Shown in pieces: positions 11,099 to 54,239 of a DNA stretch of 64,000 nucleotides. Origin of the DNA: Arcobacter sp. CECT 8986. Its GTDB lineage: Bacteria; Campylobacterota; Campylobacteria; Campylobacterales; Arcobacteraceae. The first letter of the stretch is position 1. Each line of letters starts with the position of its first letter. The notes beneath the pieces are model-generated. The model did not search any database, was not told the origin of the DNA, and worked only from the letters and a program-made list of their open reading frames with translations. A program made the translations under genes and the position numbers. The stretch lies in assembly GCF_004116725.1 (NCBI RefSeq), contig NZ_PDKG01000005.1, positions 124,001 through 188,000 of the forward strand, in the 5' to 3' direction.

Positions 11099-12024
11099 CT
11101 AAACTGCTTTACTCTTGGGTCATATTTTTGAACCCAAATATCTGCTATTAGATTAAAGATTATAAATAGTATTGCCATAAATAAAACATATGATTGAATA
11201 ATAGGATAATCTCTTACAAATATTGCATGAACACACACTCTTCCAAGTCCTGGAAGTGCAAAGATATTCTCAATTATTACTGTTCCTGCTAATAGTCTTG
11301 GAATAGACATATTTAAAGCAACAATAAAAGGAGTTATAGCATTTCTTACTTGATGTTTTATAAGTGCATATTTACTTATACCTCTTGCTTTTGCATACAT
11401 CATAAATAAAGAGTTTTTTGTTTGTATTATGGAGTTTCTTATAATTCTTACAAATGTAGAAATATATGTTATTGCTAAAGTTACTGAAGGTAAAACTAAA
11501 CTACTAAAACCACTAAATCCATTTGATGGAAAGATATTATAATAGTATGCAAAAGAGTAAATTAATAGTAAAGCAAGCCAAAAACTAGGAATTGCAGTTG
11601 TTGTAAAAATAAGAGCTCTTACAATCTTATCAAAAAGAGTGTTTTCATATAAAGCACACAAAACACCAATAATAAAACCAAAAACTATTATTAGAAAAAT
11701 AGAGAATAAACTTAAGTATAAAGTGATAGGAAAAGCTTCTAATAACTCATCAATTACTGGCTTTTTATTTTCATAACTTATTCCAAAATCACCTTTTATT
11801 AAGTTATTTAGCCAAGAGAAGTATTGATTTATCAAAGGCTTATCTAATCCTAACTCTTTTCTTGTAAGTTCAATTGCTTCTTTTGTAACTGTAATATTGT
11901 TTACTCTTAGTGATACTTCTGCTGGATCACTTTGATTTATATTTACAAGTGTAAAACATATAACAGTTACACCTAAAAGTAAAGGAATAATTAAAAGTAC
12001 TTTTTTTAATAAAAATTTACTCAT
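11095..12024 (-). CDS. nikB: Nickel/peptide ABC transporter permease (NikB-like)
   Basis: A 309-residue inner-membrane permease of the DppB/NikB class. It begins with a TM helix (LLKKVLLIIPLLLGVTVICF), then a periplasmic stretch with ELGLDKPLINQYFSWLNNLIKGDFG, typical of DppB subunits, and five further helices with the coupling loop MYAKARGISKYALIKHQVRNA. The start overlaps the nikA stop as ATGA. It should form the translocation pore with the NikC-like subunit. Confidence 0.87.
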   Translation of the reverse strand: MSKFLLKKVLLIIPLLLGVTVICFTLVNINQSDPAEVSLRVNNITVTKEAIELTRKELGLDKPLINQYFSWLNNLIKGDFGISYENKKPVIDELLEAFPITLYLSLFSIFLIIVFGFIIGVLCALYENTLFDKIVRALIFTTTAIPSFWLALLLIYSFAYYYNIFPSNGFSGFSSLVLPSVTLAITYISTFVRIIRNSIIQTKNSLFMMYAKARGISKYALIKHQVRNAITPFIVALNMSIPRLLAGTVIIENIFALPGLGRVCVHAIFVRDYPIIQSYVLFMAILFIIFNLIADIWVQKYDPRVKQFR

Positions 12025-13607
12025 TTGCTCTTTTCAAAATACATTTTTTCAAATGGAATTTCATATTGAGAAAGATTGAATCCAACATCTTTTAACTTTG
12101 GATTGAATACAACTTTTGTTCTTGAATAACTAATAGGAATATATACATCTTCTTTATGAATATAAGAGAATATATCTTTATATAGTTTTGCTCTTTTTAA
12201 ATCATCTGTTTGTATTAAAATATCTTCTATTGTTTTATCTAACCATGCTTTTCTTTCTAACCCTAACTGTGCTTGATAATCTCCATGTGCAGGAATTCTC
12301 CATGATGAAATAAATGATTGTGGGTCATAAGGAACACCCCAAGAAAGTGAGTATTGTAAATCAAAATCTCCACTTTTTTGTCTATCTAAAAATGTCTGTT
12401 TCTCTTCACCTATTATTTGAAGTTTTATTCCAATATCTTTTAAGTTACTTTGAATATATTCGCTTATTGTTTTTTCTTGTGCATTATTTGCATTATAGTA
12501 TAGTTTTAAAACTAATTGTTTTCCATCTTTTTCTCTTATATTTGTACTTTTATTTAAAAGCCAACCATCATTATCTAAAATCTTTTTTGACATAGATATA
12601 TCAAAAGTTTTAACTGGTAAATCTATATTACAATAAGGAGTTGTTTTTGAAAATAGTGTATTTGCAACTGTTTCTTTATTATTTAATATACCTTTTATAA
12701 TAGCTTGTTTGTTTATTGCATGTTCTAGTGCTTTTCTTACTTCTAAATCTTTTGTTATTTCTCTTTTTGTATTTATTAAAATTGCTCTTGAAGCAATGGG
12801 ATTGCTAAGTTCTGTTTTTACTTTATTACTCTTTTCAAGCATTGTAAAAGCATCTAAATTTATCATATCTCCATCAGAACCAAATATTAAATCAATCTCA
12901 CCTTTTTGTAAAGATAGTAAAATAGATTGATGATTTGGAATAACTCTCCATTTGATTTTTTCAATTTTAGCTTTATTTTTCCAGTAGTTTTCATTTTTTA
13001 CAAATAGTGCATAATCATTTTTTTTATGCTCTTTTAAAATCCAAGCTCCCGTTCCTACATAACATTTCACACCATCTTTTGTTTTATCATTTTTAAAGCA
13101 GTTTGTTGAAATAAATCTAAATGGTCTTGTCATTGCTAATTCTGTTAAAGTAGGGTAATAAGCATTTTTAAGATTTAACTCAAATGTAAACTTATCTATT
13201 ACTTTTGTACTTTTTATTTGATTTACTAATTCAAGCCAAGCGTGTCTTGCTTTGTTTTCTAATATTGCATCAAAATTCTTTTTTACAATATTTGCATCAA
13301 AAACTAAACCATCAGAAAACTTTACATCTTCTCTTAATTTAAATATATATGTTTTTCCATCATTTGTAATCTTCCAGCTTTTTGCAAGATTTGGTTTTAT
13401 TCCATCATTTGTATTTATAACTAAAGATTCAAATACCATATTTTGTGCTGCCATTTCACCAGAATAAAGGTGTGGATTTATATCTCTTATATCTTTTGTA
13501 CTTGCATATATAAGTTCATCTTTTTTAATACTATTTTCTTTAGATTGACAAGCACTAAAAAAAACTAATATTAAACAAAAAGTTAATATTTTAGTTATTG
13601 ATTTCAT
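12021..13607 (-). CDS. nikA: Nickel ABC transporter substrate-binding lipoprotein (NikA/NikZ-like)
   Basis: A 528-residue lipoprotein (lipobox FFSAC, C20) of the family 5 solute-binding proteins. Compared from memory with E. coli NikA it keeps long matching blocks such as RHAWLEL (122-127 region) and RPFRFI (R161, matching the E. coli Arg137 position), W423 and Y427 in SWGVPYDP, and H441 in RIPAHGDYQAQ, the equivalents of W398, Y402 and H416 that hold the Ni-histidine complex. This supports nickel rather than peptide import. First gene of a five-gene operon with ATGA overlaps, behind a 21-bp dyad. Nickel would supply enzymes such as hydrogenase or urease, not seen here. Confidence 0.9.
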   Translation of the reverse strand: MKSITKILTFCLILVFFSACQSKENSIKKDELIYASTKDIRDINPHLYSGEMAAQNMVFESLVINTNDGIKPNLAKSWKITNDGKTYIFKLREDVKFSDGLVFDANIVKKNFDAILENKARHAWLELVNQIKSTKVIDKFTFELNLKNAYYPTLTELAMTRPFRFISTNCFKNDKTKDGVKCYVGTGAWILKEHKKNDYALFVKNENYWKNKAKIEKIKWRVIPNHQSILLSLQKGEIDLIFGSDGDMINLDAFTMLEKSNKVKTELSNPIASRAILINTKREITKDLEVRKALEHAINKQAIIKGILNNKETVANTLFSKTTPYCNIDLPVKTFDISMSKKILDNDGWLLNKSTNIREKDGKQLVLKLYYNANNAQEKTISEYIQSNLKDIGIKLQIIGEEKQTFLDRQKSGDFDLQYSLSWGVPYDPQSFISSWRIPAHGDYQAQLGLERKAWLDKTIEDILIQTDDLKRAKLYKDIFSYIHKEDVYIPISYSRTKVVFNPKLKDVGFNLSQYEIPFEKMYFEKSK

Positions 13608-13631: not shown

Positions 13632-13679
13632 ATTATATTAATTTTTAATTACACTGGTATAAGATATTTTATATCTTAT
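13632..13679 (-). promoter_or_regulatory. nik operon promoter region with 21-bp dyad operator
   Basis: Reading toward nikA, a perfect inverted repeat ATAAGATAT, three bases, ATATCTTAT lies at 13659-13679, about 50 bases before the nikA ATG. A TATAAT (complement at 13632-13637) lies downstream of it, so the dyad would cover the -35 region. The position fits a metal-responsive repressor such as NikR, but the arms are not the E. coli GTATGA site. Regulator unassigned. Confidence 0.5.
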
Positions 13680-13839
13680 GTATTTTTAGGACAATTTTAA
13701 TTTAATGACAGAATATGTAACTATTTCAGTCAAAAAAGATTTTTTTACTTAAACTTTACAAAAAATATACAATTAATATTTCATTCTAATAATTATTTTG
13801 ATAACATCAACTGATTATCGTTTTGAAGGGGTATTTTTT

Positions 13840-45145: not shown

Positions 45146-45553
45146 TTATGCAAAGGCTTTTGCATATTCATTAATTCTTTTAATCATACCTTGTACACCA
45201 CTTTGTCTATTTGGTGTAATTATCTCTTCAAGTTTTAGCTCATGAAGTACTTGTTTATCCATTTGTAAAATTTCATTTGGTGTTAAACCTGAATAAATTG
45301 TAAGTAGAATTTTTACTAATCCTTTTACAATAGCTGCATTTGAATCAGCTTTAAAAATTAGTTTATCATCTTCTTTTTCACAAACAAGCCAAACTTTTGA
45401 AGTACAGCCTTGTACTAAATTCTCATCTTTTTTGTGCTCTTCTTCAAGAGGCTCTAAACTTTTACCTAAATCTATTATATATTCATATTTTTGTAAATCA
45501 TCATCGAAAATTTCTAAATCGTCTTTAATCTCTTCAATTTTATTTTCAATCAT
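45146..45553 (-). CDS. sufE: Cysteine desulfuration protein SufE
   Basis: 135 residues. SufE accepts persulfide sulfur from SufS and passes it to the SufBCD scaffold. The acceptor cysteine is C50 in LVQGCTSKVWL, and the C-terminal part (GLTPNEILQMD, NRQSGVQGMIKRI) matches the family. Starts three bases after the sufS stop region in the order sufS-sufE. Confidence 0.92.
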   Translation of the reverse strand: MIENKIEEIKDDLEIFDDDLQKYEYIIDLGKSLEPLEEEHKKDENLVQGCTSKVWLVCEKEDDKLIFKADSNAAIVKGLVKILLTIYSGLTPNEILQMDKQVLHELKLEEIITPNRQSGVQGMIKRINEYAKAFA

Positions 45554-45556
45554 TTA

Positions 45557-46741
45557 TTAATCCTTTAGCATCATTATTGCTTTTTTTAATCCTTCAATAA
45601 ATTTATCAATATCATCTTTAGTATTATAAAAAGCAACACTAGCTCTAATTGTACCATCAATATTTAGTTTTTTCATAATTGGTTGTGCACAGTGATGTCC
45701 TGCTCTAACTGCAATATGCATTTTATCTAATAATATTCCAACATCTTCACAATTGATACTCTCAATATTGAAACTTTTACTTCCTATTGCATTTGATACA
45801 TTATTGTAAAGAATTATTCCTGGAATTTTTTCAAGTTCATTATGTAAATATTTATATAATTCATCTTCTATTTCAAAAACTTTTTCAATACCAATATTAT
45901 TTAAATAGTTTAATGCTTGAGAAAAACCAATTACTCCAGCAATATTTTGAGTTCCTGCTTCATATTTGTATGGTGAATCAAGCATAATACTTCTTTCGAA
46001 GTTTACGTCATTTATTGTTGCTCCACCTGTTTGATAAACTGGAAGCTCTTTTAATAACTCTTCTTTTACATATAATGCTCCAACACCAGTTGGTCCATAT
46101 GTTTTATGTCCAGACATTCCATAAAAATCAACATCTAAATCTTGTACATCAACTTTAAAATGGGCAACACTTTGTGCTGCATCAACCATAATGTAACTAT
46201 CATATTTATGAGTTAATTGAGCTATTTTTTTTATATCATGTCTTGTACCAAAAGCATTTGAAACGTGAGTTACACTTACAAGTGAATTTGGATTTGCTTT
46301 TAATAACTCTTCAAAGTGTTCATAATCAAACTCTAAATTATCTTTGATATTTACAACTTCTAATCCATCATGAAGTGTTCTTCCTTGCATATGCCAAGGA
46401 GTCACATTTGAGTGATGTTCAAGCGAAGAGATAATTACAGTTTTGAATTTTTTTGCAAATGTTGCAGCTATTAAATTCAAAGATTCTGTTATTCCTTTTG
46501 TAAAGATAATCTGCTTTGAGTCTTTTGCATTAATAAAATCTTTTAAAATATTTCTAGTATTTTCAAACTCTTTAGTAGCTCTATTTGCATCACCAAAATT
46601 ACTTCTATGAGTGTTTGCACAAAAATGAGTATAGTATTCAACTATTTTGTCTATTACTATACTTGGTTTTTGTGTTGTCGCTGCATTATCTAAATATACA
46701 GTATTTGTATTTTTAAAAAAAGGAAAATCTTCTTTATACAT
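45557..46741 (-). CDS. sufS: Cysteine desulfurase SufS
   Basis: 394 residues, group II cysteine desulfurase. PLP lysine K213 is in MSGHKTYGPTG, and the catalytic cysteine C351 is in RAGHHCAQP, the short-loop arrangement of SufS (as opposed to the NifS/IscS form also present in this window). It starts inside the end of sufD (8-base overlap). Supplies sulfur for Fe-S assembly with SufE. Confidence 0.95.
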   Translation of the reverse strand: MYKEDFPFFKNTNTVYLDNAATTQKPSIVIDKIVEYYTHFCANTHRSNFGDANRATKEFENTRNILKDFINAKDSKQIIFTKGITESLNLIAATFAKKFKTVIISSLEHHSNVTPWHMQGRTLHDGLEVVNIKDNLEFDYEHFEELLKANPNSLVSVTHVSNAFGTRHDIKKIAQLTHKYDSYIMVDAAQSVAHFKVDVQDLDVDFYGMSGHKTYGPTGVGALYVKEELLKELPVYQTGGATINDVNFERSIMLDSPYKYEAGTQNIAGVIGFSQALNYLNNIGIEKVFEIEDELYKYLHNELEKIPGIILYNNVSNAIGSKSFNIESINCEDVGILLDKMHIAVRAGHHCAQPIMKKLNIDGTIRASVAFYNTKDDIDKFIEGLKKAIMMLKD

Positions 46742-47861
46742 GATTTAATCTCTTTAAATTTTTTATATATCTTCTAATTGCTTTTAACTCTATTTTTTTA
46801 ATTACTTTTAACTCAATAGAATCAATAATCATCTCTTTAGCTTTATCTTTGCTAATTCCTCTTGAACATAAATAGTATAATTGGTCTTCATCTAATGCTC
46901 CACAACTTGCACCATGTGCTGCTTCTAGTTCATCAATAAAGATTTCTAATCTTGGATTTGCATTTATTCTTGCATCATCACTTAATAAAATAGTTTGACT
47001 ATTTTGAAAAGCTTTTGAATATAAAGCACTATTTTGAACTTTTGATGCCACATCAAATAAAGCGTGTGCTTCATCATCTAATAAATGTTTGATTTTTACA
47101 TCACTTATGCTACTTTTTGCAATATGTTCAACAAACATTATATTTGCACTTTTTTGTTTTTTACTATTTTTTATAATTCCATCAAAGTTAAAGTTTGCAT
47201 TTTCATATTCAAGTTTACTATCAAAAATATTTACTGCAAGATTTGCTTTGTACTCTAAATTTACTAAGTTTAAAGTAGCATTATCTTCAACTTGAGTTTT
47301 ATAATTTACTATAATTTGTGCATCACTTAAAGTCTGTACTTTTGCAATATTTGCTTTTACGTTTTGTTTTACTACATATTTTCTATTTGCACTTATAAAA
47401 TAGTCTTTATTCTCTTCATTGTGAAATGTTTCTAAGATATCACAATCTACATTTGCTTCAATATTTAATGAACTTGTAAAAAATTTATTATCACCTTCAA
47501 AGATATTTATAATATTTAGAGGTTTTTCAAGCTCATTTTTTATAGTAAGTGTTGTAACTTCTTTTTCTAAATAGCTATTTAAAGAGTATAATTTATTTGA
47601 ACTACTATCTTCAAAGCTATTATGTGAAATTTCAATACTTTTATCAATTTCATCTTCTAATACAATTTTGTTGTTCACAAAAAAGATATTTATAAAATGT
47701 TCATCTTTTAAATAGTTATATTTATTTAAATCTACTTTTTCTTCTTTTTGAAAATGAAACTCTTTTTCAAAATAAGGATAAATATTGAAGCTTCTAAACT
47801 CTTCAACTTTTTTAGTTGGTAAAATACTTATATCTAAGTTTTTTATATCAATTACCTTCAT
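46734..47861 (-). CDS. sufD: Fe-S assembly scaffold subunit SufD
   Basis: 375 residues of the SufB/SufD beta-helix family. The C-terminal block RLEIFIDELEAAHGASCGALDEDQLYYLCSRGI (residues about 308-340, described here in part: AAHGASCGALDEDQLYYL) is diagnostic, including the conserved HGASCG. Stop of sufC and start of sufD share a base. Works in the SufBC2D complex. Confidence 0.92.
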   Translation of the reverse strand: MKVIDIKNLDISILPTKKVEEFRSFNIYPYFEKEFHFQKEEKVDLNKYNYLKDEHFINIFFVNNKIVLEDEIDKSIEISHNSFEDSSSNKLYSLNSYLEKEVTTLTIKNELEKPLNIINIFEGDNKFFTSSLNIEANVDCDILETFHNEENKDYFISANRKYVVKQNVKANIAKVQTLSDAQIIVNYKTQVEDNATLNLVNLEYKANLAVNIFDSKLEYENANFNFDGIIKNSKKQKSANIMFVEHIAKSSISDVKIKHLLDDEAHALFDVASKVQNSALYSKAFQNSQTILLSDDARINANPRLEIFIDELEAAHGASCGALDEDQLYYLCSRGISKDKAKEMIIDSIELKVIKKIELKAIRRYIKNLKRLNHV

Positions 47862-48604
47862 TATCCTTCTCCTAATCCCTCAAAACCTTTTTCTTGAAGC
47901 TCTAATGCAAGTGAATAATCACCAGATTTTGAAATTTTTCCATCTTTTAAAATATGTACATAATCAGGTTTAATTAACTCTAATAATCTATCATAGTGAG
48001 TAATCATAAGAACAGAACGTTTACCATCAAGTAAAGAGTTAACTGCTTTTGCTACAAGTTTAATTGCATCAATATCTAATCCTGAATCAATTTCATCTAA
48101 TAAAATTAAATCTGGTTTCAATAGAAGCATTTGAAGCATTTCATTTTTCTTTTTTTCTCCACCACTAAAACCTTCATTTACATTTCTTTTGATGATTTCA
48201 TCATTTATATTATATTCTTTAATGATAGATTTTACTTCTTTTAGAAAATGTGCAGAATTTACTTCCTCTTCATTTTTATATGCTCTTTTTTCATTTACTG
48301 CTGTTTTAAGAAAGTACATATTATTTACTCCCTCAACTTCAACAGGATTTTGAAAACTCATAAAAATACCTTCATTTGCACGTTCACTTGCATCAAGTTC
48401 TAATAAGTCTTTACCTTTAAAATCAATTTTTCCACTGCTTACTTCACAGTCATAATGATCACTTAGTGCTTTTACTAATGTTGATTTTCCTACACCATTA
48501 GTCCCCATAAGAACGTGAACTTCACCCTCTTTAATCTCTAAATTAAAATCTTTTAATATATGTTTATTTGCAATACTTACATTTAAATTTTCTATTTTTA
48601 ACAT
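47861..48604 (-). CDS. sufC: Fe-S assembly ATPase SufC
   Basis: 247 residues, soluble ABC ATPase: Walker A GTNGVGKST near residue 35, signature FSGGEKKKNE, Walker B LILLDEIDSGLD and H-loop MITHYDRLL. The FSGGEKKKNE form with its lysines and the DSGLD are specific to SufC. It drives conformational change of the SufB-SufD scaffold. Confidence 0.95.
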   Translation of the reverse strand: MLKIENLNVSIANKHILKDFNLEIKEGEVHVLMGTNGVGKSTLVKALSDHYDCEVSSGKIDFKGKDLLELDASERANEGIFMSFQNPVEVEGVNNMYFLKTAVNEKRAYKNEEEVNSAHFLKEVKSIIKEYNINDEIIKRNVNEGFSGGEKKKNEMLQMLLLKPDLILLDEIDSGLDIDAIKLVAKAVNSLLDGKRSVLMITHYDRLLELIKPDYVHILKDGKISKSGDYSLALELQEKGFEGLGEG

Positions 48605-48620: not shown

Positions 48621-50054
48621 TTAACCAACACTACCTTCTAAAGATATATCAAGAAGCGCTTTTGCTTCAACAACGAATTCCATTGGTAATTCTTCTAAAA
48701 CATCTTTACAAAAACCATTTACTATTAGTGAAACTGCATCCTCTTCTTTTATACCTCTTTGTCTTATATAAAAAAGTTGGTCATCAGATATTTTTGATGT
48801 AGTTGCTTCATGCTCAATTTTTGCAGTTGAGTTTCTTATCTCTTGATAAGGATAAGTGTGTGCTGCACTATTTGAACCAATTAGTAATGAATCACATGAT
48901 GATATATTTCTTGCATTTTTTGCACTTTTAGCAATTTTTACTAAACCTCTATAAGCATTTACACCATTTAATGCAGAAATACCTTTTGAAATAATAGTTG
49001 ATTTTGTATTTTCACCTATATGAATCATTTTTGTACCTGTATCTGCTTGTTGAGCTAATGAAGTAAGAGCAACAGAGTAAAACTCTCCACTACTATTATT
49101 CCCTTTTAAGATACATGATGGGTATTTCCATGTTACAAGTGAACCTGTTTCAACTTGTGTCCAAGAGATTTTTGAGTTATCACCTTTACAAATACCTCTT
49201 TTTGTAACAAAGTTTAAAATTCCACCTTTACCATCTTTATCTCCAGGATACCAGTTTTGAATAGTTGAGTATTTAATATGTGCATCTTTTAATGCAACCA
49301 ATTCAACAACTGCTGCGTGAAGTTGACTATCATCTCTAATTGGTGCAGAACAGCCTTCATTATAAGATACATAACTTCCTTCATCACAAATGATAAGTGT
49401 TCTTTCAAATTGTCCAGTATTTAAAGCATTGATTCTAAAATATGTTGATAATTCCATTGGACATCTTGTGTTTGGTGGAATATATACAAAACTTCCATCT
49501 GTAAATACAGCACTATTTAATGTCGCAAAATAGTTATCTGTATAAGGAACAACCGAAGCTAAATATTTTTTTAATAAGTCTGGATATTTGTTTGCTGCTT
49601 CTGAAATAGAACAAAATATTATTCCTAAATCTTCAAGCTCTTTTTGGAATGTAGTTTTAACTGATACTGAGTCAAAAACTGCATCAACTGCAACTCCTGC
49701 AAGTTTTTTTTGCTCTTCAAGTGGAATACCTAATTTTTCATATGTTTTTAAAATTTCAGGGTCAACTTCATCTAAAGAACCAATTGGTTTTTTTGGTGCA
49801 GAATAATAAGAAAAATCTTGATAATCTATTTTGTCATAATTTAAACCTGCCCAATCAGGCTCTTCCATTGTTAACCATTTTTTATAAGCTTTTAGTCTAA
49901 ATTCAAGTAGCCATTCTGGCTCTTCTTTTTTTGCTGATATTGCTTTTATTACATCTTCATTTAGACCTTTTGGAAATGTTTCACTATTTACAATAGTTTC
50001 AAATCCTAAGCTATAATCATTAGATATTACATTGTTTATTGTTTCATTTTTCAT
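48621..50054 (-). CDS. sufB: Fe-S assembly scaffold protein SufB
   Basis: 477 residues. Family blocks include [54 protein letters not shown] and the C-terminal [22 protein letters not shown] that holds the conserved glutamate/histidine. SufB receives sulfur and iron and builds the nascent cluster. First gene of sufBCDSE-sufT. ATG follows AGGAG with six bases between, at the edge of a 25-bp dyad that overlaps the probable transcript start. Confidence 0.95.
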
Positions 50055-50064
50055 CTAATCTCCT

Positions 50065-50089
50065 AAATAGGACATAAATTGTCTTATTT
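50065..50089 (-). promoter_or_regulatory. suf operator: 25-bp dyad
   Basis: AAATAGGACA, TAAAT, TGTCTTATTT on the plus strand: 10-base arms with one mismatch. It covers the expected start point of the suf transcript and ends a few bases before the SD. Read toward sufB it aligns at 20 of 25 positions with an element in front of nifS (51953-51977). Confidence 0.6.
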
Positions 50090-50094
50090 TTAAA

Positions 50095-50123
50095 ATTGTA
50101 ACATAAATTGTTTAAGTTGTAAA
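50095..50123 (-). promoter_or_regulatory. suf promoter with second operator-like site
   Basis: Toward sufB the order is TTTACA (50123-50118), 17 bases, TACAAT (50100-50095): both hexamers match consensus at five of six. Inside the spacer, 50101-50111 repeats the 11 bases ACATAAATTGT also found at the centre of the downstream dyad (50072-50082), 29 bases away. Confidence 0.6.
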
Positions 50124-50135
50124 GATAACAACAAC

Positions 50136-50924
50136 TTATTTGATACTTTTTTCTAATTTTTTTGTATAAAAAGAAATAGGATAGGTTAAAAGTAAATATC
50201 CTATTGCTAAAGGTATATAACTCTCCAATGTTGAATATGTATATGCATTTACTTCTTGTGCATTCATTGTAAACTCACTAATTGATATAATAGAAAGTAG
50301 TGATGAATCTTTTATTATTGATGCAAATTGTCCTGTCAATGCTGGTAACATTCTTTTAAATGCTTGAGGAAAAATTATATATCTATACATTTGATAATTT
50401 GACATTGCTAAACTTATACTTGTTTCATATTGTTCTATCTCTATTGATTGAATTGCTGCACGAATTATTTCACATACATATGCAGCTGAAAATATTGCCA
50501 ATATAAATACACCAACAATATATCTATTTTCAAATCCTAAATTGTTAGCAAAAACATAAAAAAATATAAGTATTTGTACAAGTAATGGAGTTCCTCTAAT
50601 TACTTCTACATAAAATCTTGCAAAAAATCTTAAAAATATTATTTTTGAACTTTGTGCATATGCAAAAAATAGCCCCAATATTAAACTTAAAATTAAAGCA
50701 AATATTGAAATTGCAATAGTCATAAAAAAACCATCAATAAATTTTTGTTTATACTCATATACACTTGTCCAATTAAATTCATACATAATATTTGAGAACA
50801 TAAAATAAAGTGTAATTGATACTAAAAAAATTAATAAAATGGCGTTAAAAGCATAAACTCTTTTTTTTATAGAGTTTTGCTTTTTATAAGAAAGTTCATT
50901 TATAAAATAATCTTTTATTTCGAT
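50136..50924 (-). CDS. Polar amino acid ABC transporter permease (GlnP/HisM family), ATC start
   Basis: About 262 residues if begun at ATC 50924. The core has GlnP-type TM helices and the EAA loop ETSISLAMSNYQMYRYIIFPQAFKRMLPAL (about residues 165-195), plus EVIRGTPLLVQI. The first ATG (50801) would give 221 residues and drop an open stretch of 41 codons containing a TM helix (AFNAILLIFLVSITLYF). That stretch begins ATC GAA ATA AAA, six bases after AGGAG and directly after an in-frame TAA, with no ATG, GTG or TTG. I therefore extend the gene to the ATC. Partner of the binding lipoprotein upstream; no ATPase gene is adjacent. Confidence 0.7.
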   Translation of the reverse strand: MEIKDYFINELSYKKQNSIKKRVYAFNAILLIFLVSITLYFMFSNIMYEFNWTSVYEYKQKFIDGFFMTIAISIFALILSLILGLFFAYAQSSKIIFLRFFARFYVEVIRGTPLLVQILIFFYVFANNLGFENRYIVGVFILAIFSAAYVCEIIRAAIQSIEIEQYETSISLAMSNYQMYRYIIFPQAFKRMLPALTGQFASIIKDSSLLSIISISEFTMNAQEVNAYTYSTLESYIPLAIGYLLLTYPISFYTKKLEKSIK

Positions 50925-50933
50925 TTTTTACTC

Positions 50934-51740
50934 CTAAAAGAAAAATGGTATATTTAATGAATCAAATGTTTTTTTAGCATCTTCTAAATATTTGTATGCA
51001 AAATCATCAAAAGTTCCATCATCTTTTGCTTTTTTTATAAACTCATCAACTTTTTCTTTTAAATCTTTGTCACCTTGTCTTAAAGCAACACCCCAATATT
51101 CAAAGTTTTTTTGAAATGGCTTTAATAGTGCAACAGTTGTATCTTTATGTTTTACACTATTTCTATATATAGTTAATTGGTCATATAAAAATCCATCAGC
51201 TTTACCTTGAACAACTTCAAGTACACAAGCACTCTCTTTATCAAATACTAAAATATTTGCATTTTTTAAATGCTCTTTTGCATATAAATGTCCAGTTGAA
51301 CCCTTTTTTACAGCAATAGTTTTATCTTTTTGATTTAAATCATTTATATCTTTAACATTTGAATTTTTGTTTGCTAAAATTGCAAGTGATGTTCTTGCAT
51401 AAGGTATTGAAAAATCAATAGATTTTTTTCTTTCATCTGTTATTGTCATAGATGAAATAATCATATCAACTTTTCCAGTTTTAAGTGATGGTATTAATCC
51501 ATCCCAAGCAATGTTTTCAATTTTTAATTCTTTATTCATTGAACGAGCTAACATTTTTGCAAAATCTACAGAAACTCCAGATGGATTTCCTTTTTTATCA
51601 CTCATTTCAAAAGGTGGATATGCTAGTTCCATTCCCACTGTTAAGGTATTTTTATTTTCAACTTTTTTTTCATCGTCTTGACAACCTGAAAAAACCAAAG
51701 TAAACGCTATTATAAATATGACATAGACCAATCTTTTCAT
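50934..51740 (-). CDS. Polar amino acid ABC transporter substrate-binding lipoprotein
   Basis: 268 residues, lipobox FSGC (C20 region). The family 3 binding fold is visible: VGMELAYPPFEMSDKKGNPSGVSVDFAKMLA at 35-65 (partly quoted), WDGLIPSLKTGKVDMIISSMTIT and KDLKEKVDEFIKKAKDDG at the end. Family 3 proteins bind glutamine, cystine, histidine or similar. It is divergent from nifS with about 300 bases between, and ten bases before the permease start. AAAAAGGA precedes ATG. Confidence 0.85.
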   Translation of the reverse strand: MKRLVYVIFIIAFTLVFSGCQDDEKKVENKNTLTVGMELAYPPFEMSDKKGNPSGVSVDFAKMLARSMNKELKIENIAWDGLIPSLKTGKVDMIISSMTITDERKKSIDFSIPYARTSLAILANKNSNVKDINDLNQKDKTIAVKKGSTGHLYAKEHLKNANILVFDKESACVLEVVQGKADGFLYDQLTIYRNSVKHKDTTVALLKPFQKNFEYWGVALRQGDKDLKEKVDEFIKKAKDDGTFDDFAYKYLEDAKKTFDSLNIPFFF

Positions 51741-51910
51741 TTTTTTATCCTTTGTTGTGTTTGTGTTTTTTGAATATTATAAACCTTAGGAATATATCTT
51801 ACTCTTTTATTAGTAAAATTAAAATTTGTCAAAGAGAATATAAAACATAGAAAAGGTAAAATATACTTTTATATTTAATAAAAATAATTTTTTTATAAAT
51901 TTTTAAACTG

Positions 51911-51977
51911 TTACAAATTGTAATTAAATGTGATAAAAATAGTAAATTTATTAATTAAGACAAATTTTATCCTCTTT
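51911..51977 (+). promoter_or_regulatory. nifS promoter region with suf-like operator
   Basis: At 51953-51977 lies a 25-base element (core AAGACAAATTTTATCCT) identical at 20 of 25 positions to the suf dyad read toward sufB. A perfect palindrome TTACAA-A-TTGTAA stands at 51911-51923. A possible -10 TAGAAT is at 51982-51987 with AAGACA of the element as a weak -35. The rest of the 296-base gap (51741-52036) is AT-rich with no gene. Confidence 0.5.
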
Positions 51978-52027
51978 GGAATAGAATATGCAAAAACTTT
52001 TTTAGTAGTAAGAAGATTAATGATTAG

Positions 52028-53236
<1,209 letters not shown>

Positions 53237-53258: not shown

Positions 53259-54239
53259 ATGGCAAAAAATGATTTAGTAAGTGGATCAATTTGGGATGAG
53301 TACTCAAATCAAGTTGTAAACAGAATGAATAATCCTCAACACCAAGGGGAAATTACAGAAGAGAGAGCAAAAGAGTTAAATGCAAAATTAATTATTGCAG
53401 ATTTTGGTGCAGAATCATGTGGTGATGCAGTAAGACTTTATTGGGCAGTTGATGAAGCAACTGATAAAATCTTAGAGTCAAAATTTAAATCTTTTGGATG
53501 TGGTACAGCTATTGCTTCAAGTGATGTTATGGCTGAACTTTGTATTGGAAAAACTGTTGATGAAGCAGTAAAAATTACAAATATTGATGTTGAAAAAGCA
53601 CTAAGAGATGAGCCAAATACTCCTGCTGTTCCTCCTCAAAAAATGCACTGTTCTGTAATGGCGTATGATGTAATTAAAAAAGCAGCATCTCAATACAAAG
53701 GTGTTGATATGGAATCTTTTGAAGAAGAAGAAATTGTATGTGAATGTGCAAGAGTATCTTTAGCAACTATTAAAGAAGTAATTAGAATTAATGATTTAAA
53801 AACTGTTGAAGAAATTACTGATTATACAAAAGCTGGTGCATTTTGTAAATCATGTATTAAACCAGGTGGACATGAAGATAAAGATATCTATTTAGTTGAT
53901 ATTTTAGCTGATACTAGAGCTTTAATGGAAGAAGATAGATTAAAAACTGCTGCTGATGCAAGTGCAAGTGGAGAACTTACATTTGATAAAATGACTTTAG
54001 TTCAAAGAATTAAAGCTCTTGATACTATCTTAGATGAAGATATTAGACCAATGCTTGTAATGGATGGTGGTAATATGGAAATCATTGATATTAAAGAGAA
54101 CTTACCTCATTATGATTTATATATTAGATACTTAGGTGCATGTTCAGGATGTGCGTCTGGAAGTACTGGTACACTTTACGCAATTGAGTCAATCTTACAA
54201 CAAAAAATTGATGAAAATATCAGAGTTTTACCAATTTAA
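53259..54239 (+). CDS. nifU: NifU-type Fe-S scaffold protein, full three-domain form
   Basis: 326 residues: an IscU-like domain (1-150) with scaffold cysteines C54, C81 and C131; a BFD-like [2Fe-2S] domain with C161, C163, C196 and C199; and a C-terminal Nfu domain with C295 and C298 (CSGC). It receives sulfur from NifS encoded 22 bases upstream and passes clusters to targets. AAAGGAAAA precedes ATG. A hairpin terminator follows, so nifSU is a two-gene operon. Confidence 0.95.
   Translation: MAKNDLVSGSIWDEYSNQVVNRMNNPQHQGEITEERAKELNAKLIIADFGAESCGDAVRLYWAVDEATDKILESKFKSFGCGTAIASSDVMAELCIGKTVDEAVKITNIDVEKALRDEPNTPAVPPQKMHCSVMAYDVIKKAASQYKGVDMESFEEEEIVCECARVSLATIKEVIRINDLKTVEEITDYTKAGAFCKSCIKPGGHEDKDIYLVDILADTRALMEEDRLKTAADASASGELTFDKMTLVQRIKALDTILDEDIRPMLVMDGGNMEIIDIKENLPHYDLYIRYLGACSGCASGSTGTLYAIESILQQKIDENIRVLPI

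Follow-up and report, generated by a model that had tools for sequence, protein, structure and literature searches.

The promoters of the two iron-sulfur (Fe-S) cluster assembly systems of Arcobacter sp. CECT 8986, suf and nif, share a 25-bp near-symmetric site (AAWTAAGACAAWWWTTRTCCTAWTT, core GA[C/T]-N7-[G/A]TC) that is rare in the genome and almost confined to promoters. The site is conserved before operons for Fe-S assembly (suf, nifSU and mrp), for oxidative defence (sodB and tpx), for flavodoxin and for Fe-S enzymes (formate dehydrogenase and nuo). From the comparison of genomes we propose, with considerable confidence, that this element serves as operator for an IscR-like regulon common to the class, and that its most likely reader is a Rrf2 protein with three cysteines.

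Both elements lie in the window, that is, the whole stretch of 64,000 nucleotides that was analysed, to which the coordinates of Table 1 refer. Read toward their genes, the element before suf (50089-50065, AAATAAGACAATTTATGTCCTATTT) and the one before nifS (51953-51977, AATTAAGACAAATTTTATCCTCTTT) are identical at 20 of 25 positions, exactly as had been noted. Taken alone, such agreement between two upstream regions rich in AT is not very surprising, since 18 of 1000 dinucleotide shuffles of these two regions alone reached 20 of 25 or better, and the count of a loose pattern (two mismatches permitted) showed no excess in the window. The pair by itself being weak, the case was therefore judged on genomes. 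At suf the dyad starts 9 bp past the conserved -10 box TACAAT, and the position of this box and of the -35 box TTTACA places it over the transcript start, as proposed. The second copy of the operator centre that had been seen in the suf spacer is present at 50111-50101. However, all five congeners examined retain the main site and just one of them retains the copy, which is therefore probably due to chance; without conservation in the genus it was rejected as a functional site. The closest named SufB belongs to an Arcobacter MAG (81%), and among the 80 SufB matches listed there was one named Arcobacter record, the remainder coming from other phyla. Elsewhere in the window, a perfect palindrome with operator-like geometry (AAGATATTTTATATCTT, 13661-13677) was found between two divergent genes, 12021-13607 on the minus strand and the one starting at 13798 on the plus strand.

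Table 1 Promoter features and genes of the suf and nifS operons (positions in the window)
Feature	Position	Strand	Basis
suf operator, 25 bp	50065..50089	-	sequence; kept in 5/5 congeners; own-genome pattern match
suf operator, 17-bp core AAGACAATTTATGTCCT	50069-50085	-	
suf -10 box TACAAT (extended, TATGNTACAAT)	50095..50100	-	genus-conserved, suf promoter alignment
suf -35 box TTTACA, spacer of 17 bp to -10	50118..50123	-	sequence; genus-conserved
Second copy of operator centre, ACAATTTATGT, in suf spacer	50101..50111	-	present; kept in 1/5 congeners
nifS operator, 25 bp	51953..51977	+	sequence; own-genome and family pattern matches; de novo motif search
nifS operator, 17-bp core AAGACAAATTTTATCCT	51957-51973	+	
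nifS -10 box TAGAAT, starting exactly 25 bp past operator start	51982..51987	+	fixed-register analysis, 82 sites
sufB, first gene of suf operon	48621..50054	-	NCBIfam SufB equivalog above cut-off
sufC	47861..48604	-	NCBIfam TIGR01978 above cut-off
sufD-like	46734..47861	-	TIGR01981 best match, 186 bits, below cut-off of 222
sufS-type cysteine desulfurase	45557..46741	-	TIGR01979 best match, 452 bits, just below cut-off of 475
sufE-like	45146..45553	-	SufE model best match, below cut-off
nifS, epsilon-type cysteine desulfurase	52037..53236	+	TIGR03403 nifS_epsilon above cut-off
nifU-like scaffold, second gene after nifS	53259..54239	+	TIGR02000 NifU best match, 226 bits, below cut-off of 273

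Pattern searches over the own genome (2.65 Mb) retrieved the strict core AAGACA-N5-TRTCCT (AAGACANNNNNTRTCCT) without mismatch only five times, always in intergenic regions, preceding sufB, nifS, sodB (iron superoxide dismutase), flavodoxin and mrp (an ApbC-type Fe-S carrier). A relaxed pattern, AAGACW/TRTCYT (AAGACWNNNNNTRTCYT), gave 13 matches versus none for the reversed-pattern control and added intergenic sites before two formate dehydrogenase loci and nuoA, while five of its matches (L023 and L417-L420) fall within genes and look like background. Hence, the scan led to Fe-S and redox promoters and not to equal matches at random intergenic sites, which the original prediction had named as evidence against it.

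The same picture was found in the relatives. A search of 81 family genomes gave 190 matches to the strict pattern versus 12 for the reversed control, and 92 of the 105 family sites inspected were intergenic. The genes recurrently found downstream were mrp, nifS, sufB, sodB, tpx (thiol peroxidase), flavodoxin and an MCP-type chemoreceptor gene, with an AhpC-family peroxiredoxin, pyruvate:flavodoxin oxidoreductase, a globin and nuoA as single cases. Actually, the symmetry extends to positions that are not part of the pattern, with AA at -4/-3 mirrored by TT at +19/+20, T at -1 by A at +17 and A at +6 by T at +10, and in the named record Arcobacter sp. CPC16 two dyads precede sufB. Genera without the strict pattern carry AAGAC[A/T]-N5-TATCTT at nifS, and a Gibbs sampler run on 35 nifS promoters from the whole class, with the motif not supplied, returned AGACAAAATTTATCCTAATTA. 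A lack of conservation in relatives, the other outcome that would speak against a common operator, was thus seen neither in the family nor at the nifS promoters of the class.

At least five genomes have the same operator before a gene coding for a chemoreceptor with an MCP signalling domain (L157, L172, L178, L199 and L201, with the site at 1501 in each), suggesting that chemotaxis is tied to Fe-S or redox status. In genomes of family f10 (L289-L292) the motif immediately precedes, or coincides with, the start of a gene whose sequence looks Hcp (hybrid-cluster)-like, with an adjoining TTGATCACATAACATG stretch. In family f3 (L361 and L363-L366, several of them g29 genomes), AAGACT-N5-TATCTT was found upstream of a gene for a twin-arginine FAD-dependent oxidoreductase.

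The position of the site with respect to the promoter is also constrained. Over 82 site-gene pairs, hexamers resembling a -10 box were found 57 times at +24/+25 of the site start and no more than six times at any other position. At nifS, mrp, tpx and fldA the site starts 24-25 bp before a TATAAT-like -10 and spans about -37 to -20, and at these genes and the chemoreceptor gene, which shares this 24-25 bp distance to the box, its orientation is nearly always the same. The sites of sodB and nuoA have the opposite orientation and fall outside this fixed register, so that the effect there could differ. Both main placements, over the -35 and spacer or, at suf, over the transcript start, suit the occlusion of RNA polymerase.

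As originally noted, the window contains no Rrf2 gene; the two of this genome are found on other contigs. One of them (L037, at 143024-143422 of contig C4 of G000) codes for a protein with three cysteines (CSPSINSCPSDIANTC) and sits between rpsO and a DHH-type gene, outside any isc or suf operon, unlike iscR; the rpsO neighbour presumably matches the gene order of C. jejuni. Nearly all the genomes of the family have an orthologue of this protein, as do most of the remaining families in the class, and Cys91, Cys98 and Cys106 are invariant in 15 diverse orthologues. The protein passes the Rrf2 models (97.6 versus 30 bits for Pfam PF02082 and 107 versus 73 for TIGR00738) but fails the equivalog cut-offs of IscR (69.8 versus 207.6 and 45.8 versus 275 bits), RirA (52.6 versus 193) and NsrR (35.2 versus 182), and falls below those of CymR (32.7 versus 195) and of suf_reg TIGR02944 (60.6 versus 110.7). 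The second Rrf2 protein (L030:1492-1905) is CymR-like, lacks the three-cysteine motif and is encoded between a gene for an enzyme of cysteine/methionine metabolism and cysK. It was ruled out as the reader of the operator, since in six genomes (G011, G024, G028, G032, G033 and G043), all of them with the nifS operator, no Rrf2 other than the three-Cys protein scores above the family cut-off.

Site and protein also go together over the class. The strict nifS site was found in 24 of 35 genomes with a Rrf2 candidate (cysteines inspected in part of the class genomes) versus none of the nine without any Rrf2 (Fisher p 0.0002, phylogeny ignored). These nine represent two independent losses, one comprising the seven sampled genomes of family f2 and the other G029 and G050 in genus g8, whose relatives G040 and G012 retain both the Rrf2 gene and the dyad (exact in G040 and imperfect in G012). 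Genome-wide, the motif is at background level in 59 Rrf2-less genomes (11 versus 11 in the control) and reaches 73 versus 16 in the other Rrf2-bearing families; in 15 f2 genomes that have some Rrf2 gene the figures were 0 versus 9. The remaining 11 of the 35 Rrf2-bearing genomes have no strict site within 150 bp of nifS, although several have a near match or a site further upstream. Furthermore, the operator precedes the Rrf2 gene itself in six of 93 distinct upstream regions versus 0.28 in shuffles, in genera g2, g8, g13 and g20. None was found before the Rrf2 gene of the window genus, for which autoregulation was accordingly rejected. Comparative inference thereby gives good support to the conserved three-Cys Rrf2 protein as the putative reader, and favours the original proposal of one regulator of IscR-like Rrf2 type for both Fe-S assembly systems. 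In two genomes (L279 in g8 and L286 in g20), AAGATGTNNNACATCTT palindromes, a variant of the operator, are located 35-40 bp before the three-Cys Rrf2 gene.

The element had been described as having a layout like that of Rrf2/IscR control and a motif matching none that could be named. The layout holds, but the motif does have a known counterpart, since the type-1 site of E. coli IscR shows the same geometry as its GAC-N7-GTC core. The type-1 consensus is a 25-bp near-palindrome with this core (ATASYYGACTRWWWYAGTCRRSTAT; PMC6599224), and the operator found here has the same dyad and core geometry, also in Fe-S assembly promoters, whereas the outer letters of the half-sites differ, AAGAC/AGGAC with RTC[CT]T being unlike type-1. 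Actually, in one f8 genome the nifS site (GGACTAAATTAGTCTT) includes the exact type-1 core. The placement in the promoter is also that of the P. aeruginosa IscR site B, which occupies positions -42 to -18 in the iscR promoter (PMC6599224). IscR of E. coli and Pseudomonas likewise combines Fe-S assembly targets, a site between -35 and -10 and a Rrf2 protein with three cysteines. However, the cysteine spacing is CX6CX7C in the candidate and CX5CX5C in IscR, and the IscR ligand set Cys92/Cys98/Cys104 plus His107 is absent from the candidate, which has this other spacing and no histidine at the aligned place. In addition, alanine replaces IscR Glu43, which is among the residues reported critical for binding to type-2 DNA (PMC11475020).

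RirA and NsrR belong to the same Rrf2 fold family and also have three cysteines without the IscR histidine and control of Fe-S genes. NsrR-type operators are longer and spaced differently. The SUF regulator of Xanthomonas (suf_reg) is also a Rrf2 protein that regulates suf, and its gene is usually found together with the suf operon. The same three-Cys protein is present in the f3 genomes, and C. jejuni Cj0883c is a probable orthologue. Cj0883c has been named a Rrf2 family regulator (PMC11202532) and CJJ81176_0891, a putative Rrf2 family protein, is among the C. jejuni genes with fitness effects (PMC5438104), while no regulon or site for Cj0883c was described in the literature searched.

By analogy with IscR and from what is known of the family, a cluster-loaded dimer of the three-Cys protein would occupy the site and repress when the Fe-S supply is adequate. 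It would then cover the -35 and spacer at nifS, mrp, tpx and fldA and the transcript start at suf. Iron starvation or oxidants would strip the cluster, and both assembly systems would be released together. The repressed set, again following IscR (PMC4055776), might include both assembly systems, carriers, the peroxidase and flavodoxin. We infer both the binding of a cluster by the candidate and the sign of the regulation.

The sign could be different, with the same Rrf2 protein activating some or most of its targets (e.g. sodB) and the state of the cluster switching the sign, an alternative that we regard as unlikely. IscR provides the precedent, as it both represses and activates (PMC4055776), and the fixed register and orientation at nifS, mrp, tpx and fldA would fit an activator, as would the reversed site at sodB, whose centre, taking the TATAAT at +39 as the -10, would be located some 43 bp upstream. 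However, the sites at nifS and suf cover the core promoter or the transcript start, as expected for occlusion, and at P. aeruginosa iscR the IscR site B has the same placement as here (PMC6599224).

It is also conceivable that the operator is real and its reader belongs to another family, either of the Fur/PerR type or an atypical response regulator such as CosR/HP1043 or CemR/HP1021. The targets of the operator do overlap the general redox and energy functions of these regulators, those of the CemR/HP1021 type in Campylobacteria being known to act on genes for energy and oxidative stress (PMC11334517, PMC10593804), and in two fragmented MAGs with the nifS operator (G052 and G060) no three-Cys orthologue was found. 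We nevertheless consider this distinctly unlikely, given that the motif is lost in the genomes that lost Rrf2, that the dyad is built like an IscR site in its geometry and precedes the Rrf2 gene in several lineages, and that the HP1021 boxes GGTTGCA and GGTTTCT (PMC10593804) do not resemble it. Finally, the element might be a generic core-promoter feature of the -35 kind and the match between suf and nifS incidental, considering that the GACA of AAGACA also occurs in the -35 consensus and that AAGACA is located near -36 at nifS, mrp and tpx. With just 5-13 copies in the genome, a conserved downstream half, an intergenic bias and coherent functions of the genes that follow, and with a site that at suf follows the -10 and at sodB has the opposite orientation, this explanation is largely refuted and extremely improbable.

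Returning to the three-Cys Rrf2 protein as the reader, it appears likely that it is an ancestral master regulator of Fe-S metabolism in the Campylobacteria, distinct from IscR, RirA and NsrR, with a 25-bp AAGAC-N7-RTCYT operator. It would tie both Fe-S assembly systems to the defence against peroxide and superoxide, to flavodoxin exchange, to formate/NADH respiration and, in some lineages, to a chemoreceptor, and would have been lost together with its sites in one family.

The control of Fe-S assembly by Rrf2 proteins is already known; here it would be exerted by a protein that the tests applied distinguish from IscR. Neither the operator nor the regulon was found in the open-access papers searched, subscription literature being outside the scope. 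Campylobacter, Arcobacter and their relatives are microaerophiles that are very sensitive to oxygen owing to their Fe-S enzymes, and the way in which they adjust Fe-S assembly appears to be undescribed in the literature searched. Now that the operator, its regulon and a single candidate sensor have been named, the coordination of NIF and SUF with oxidative defence becomes testable. Provided that the putative Rrf2 gene of C. jejuni is the orthologue, these findings may also explain its fitness effect (PMC5438104).
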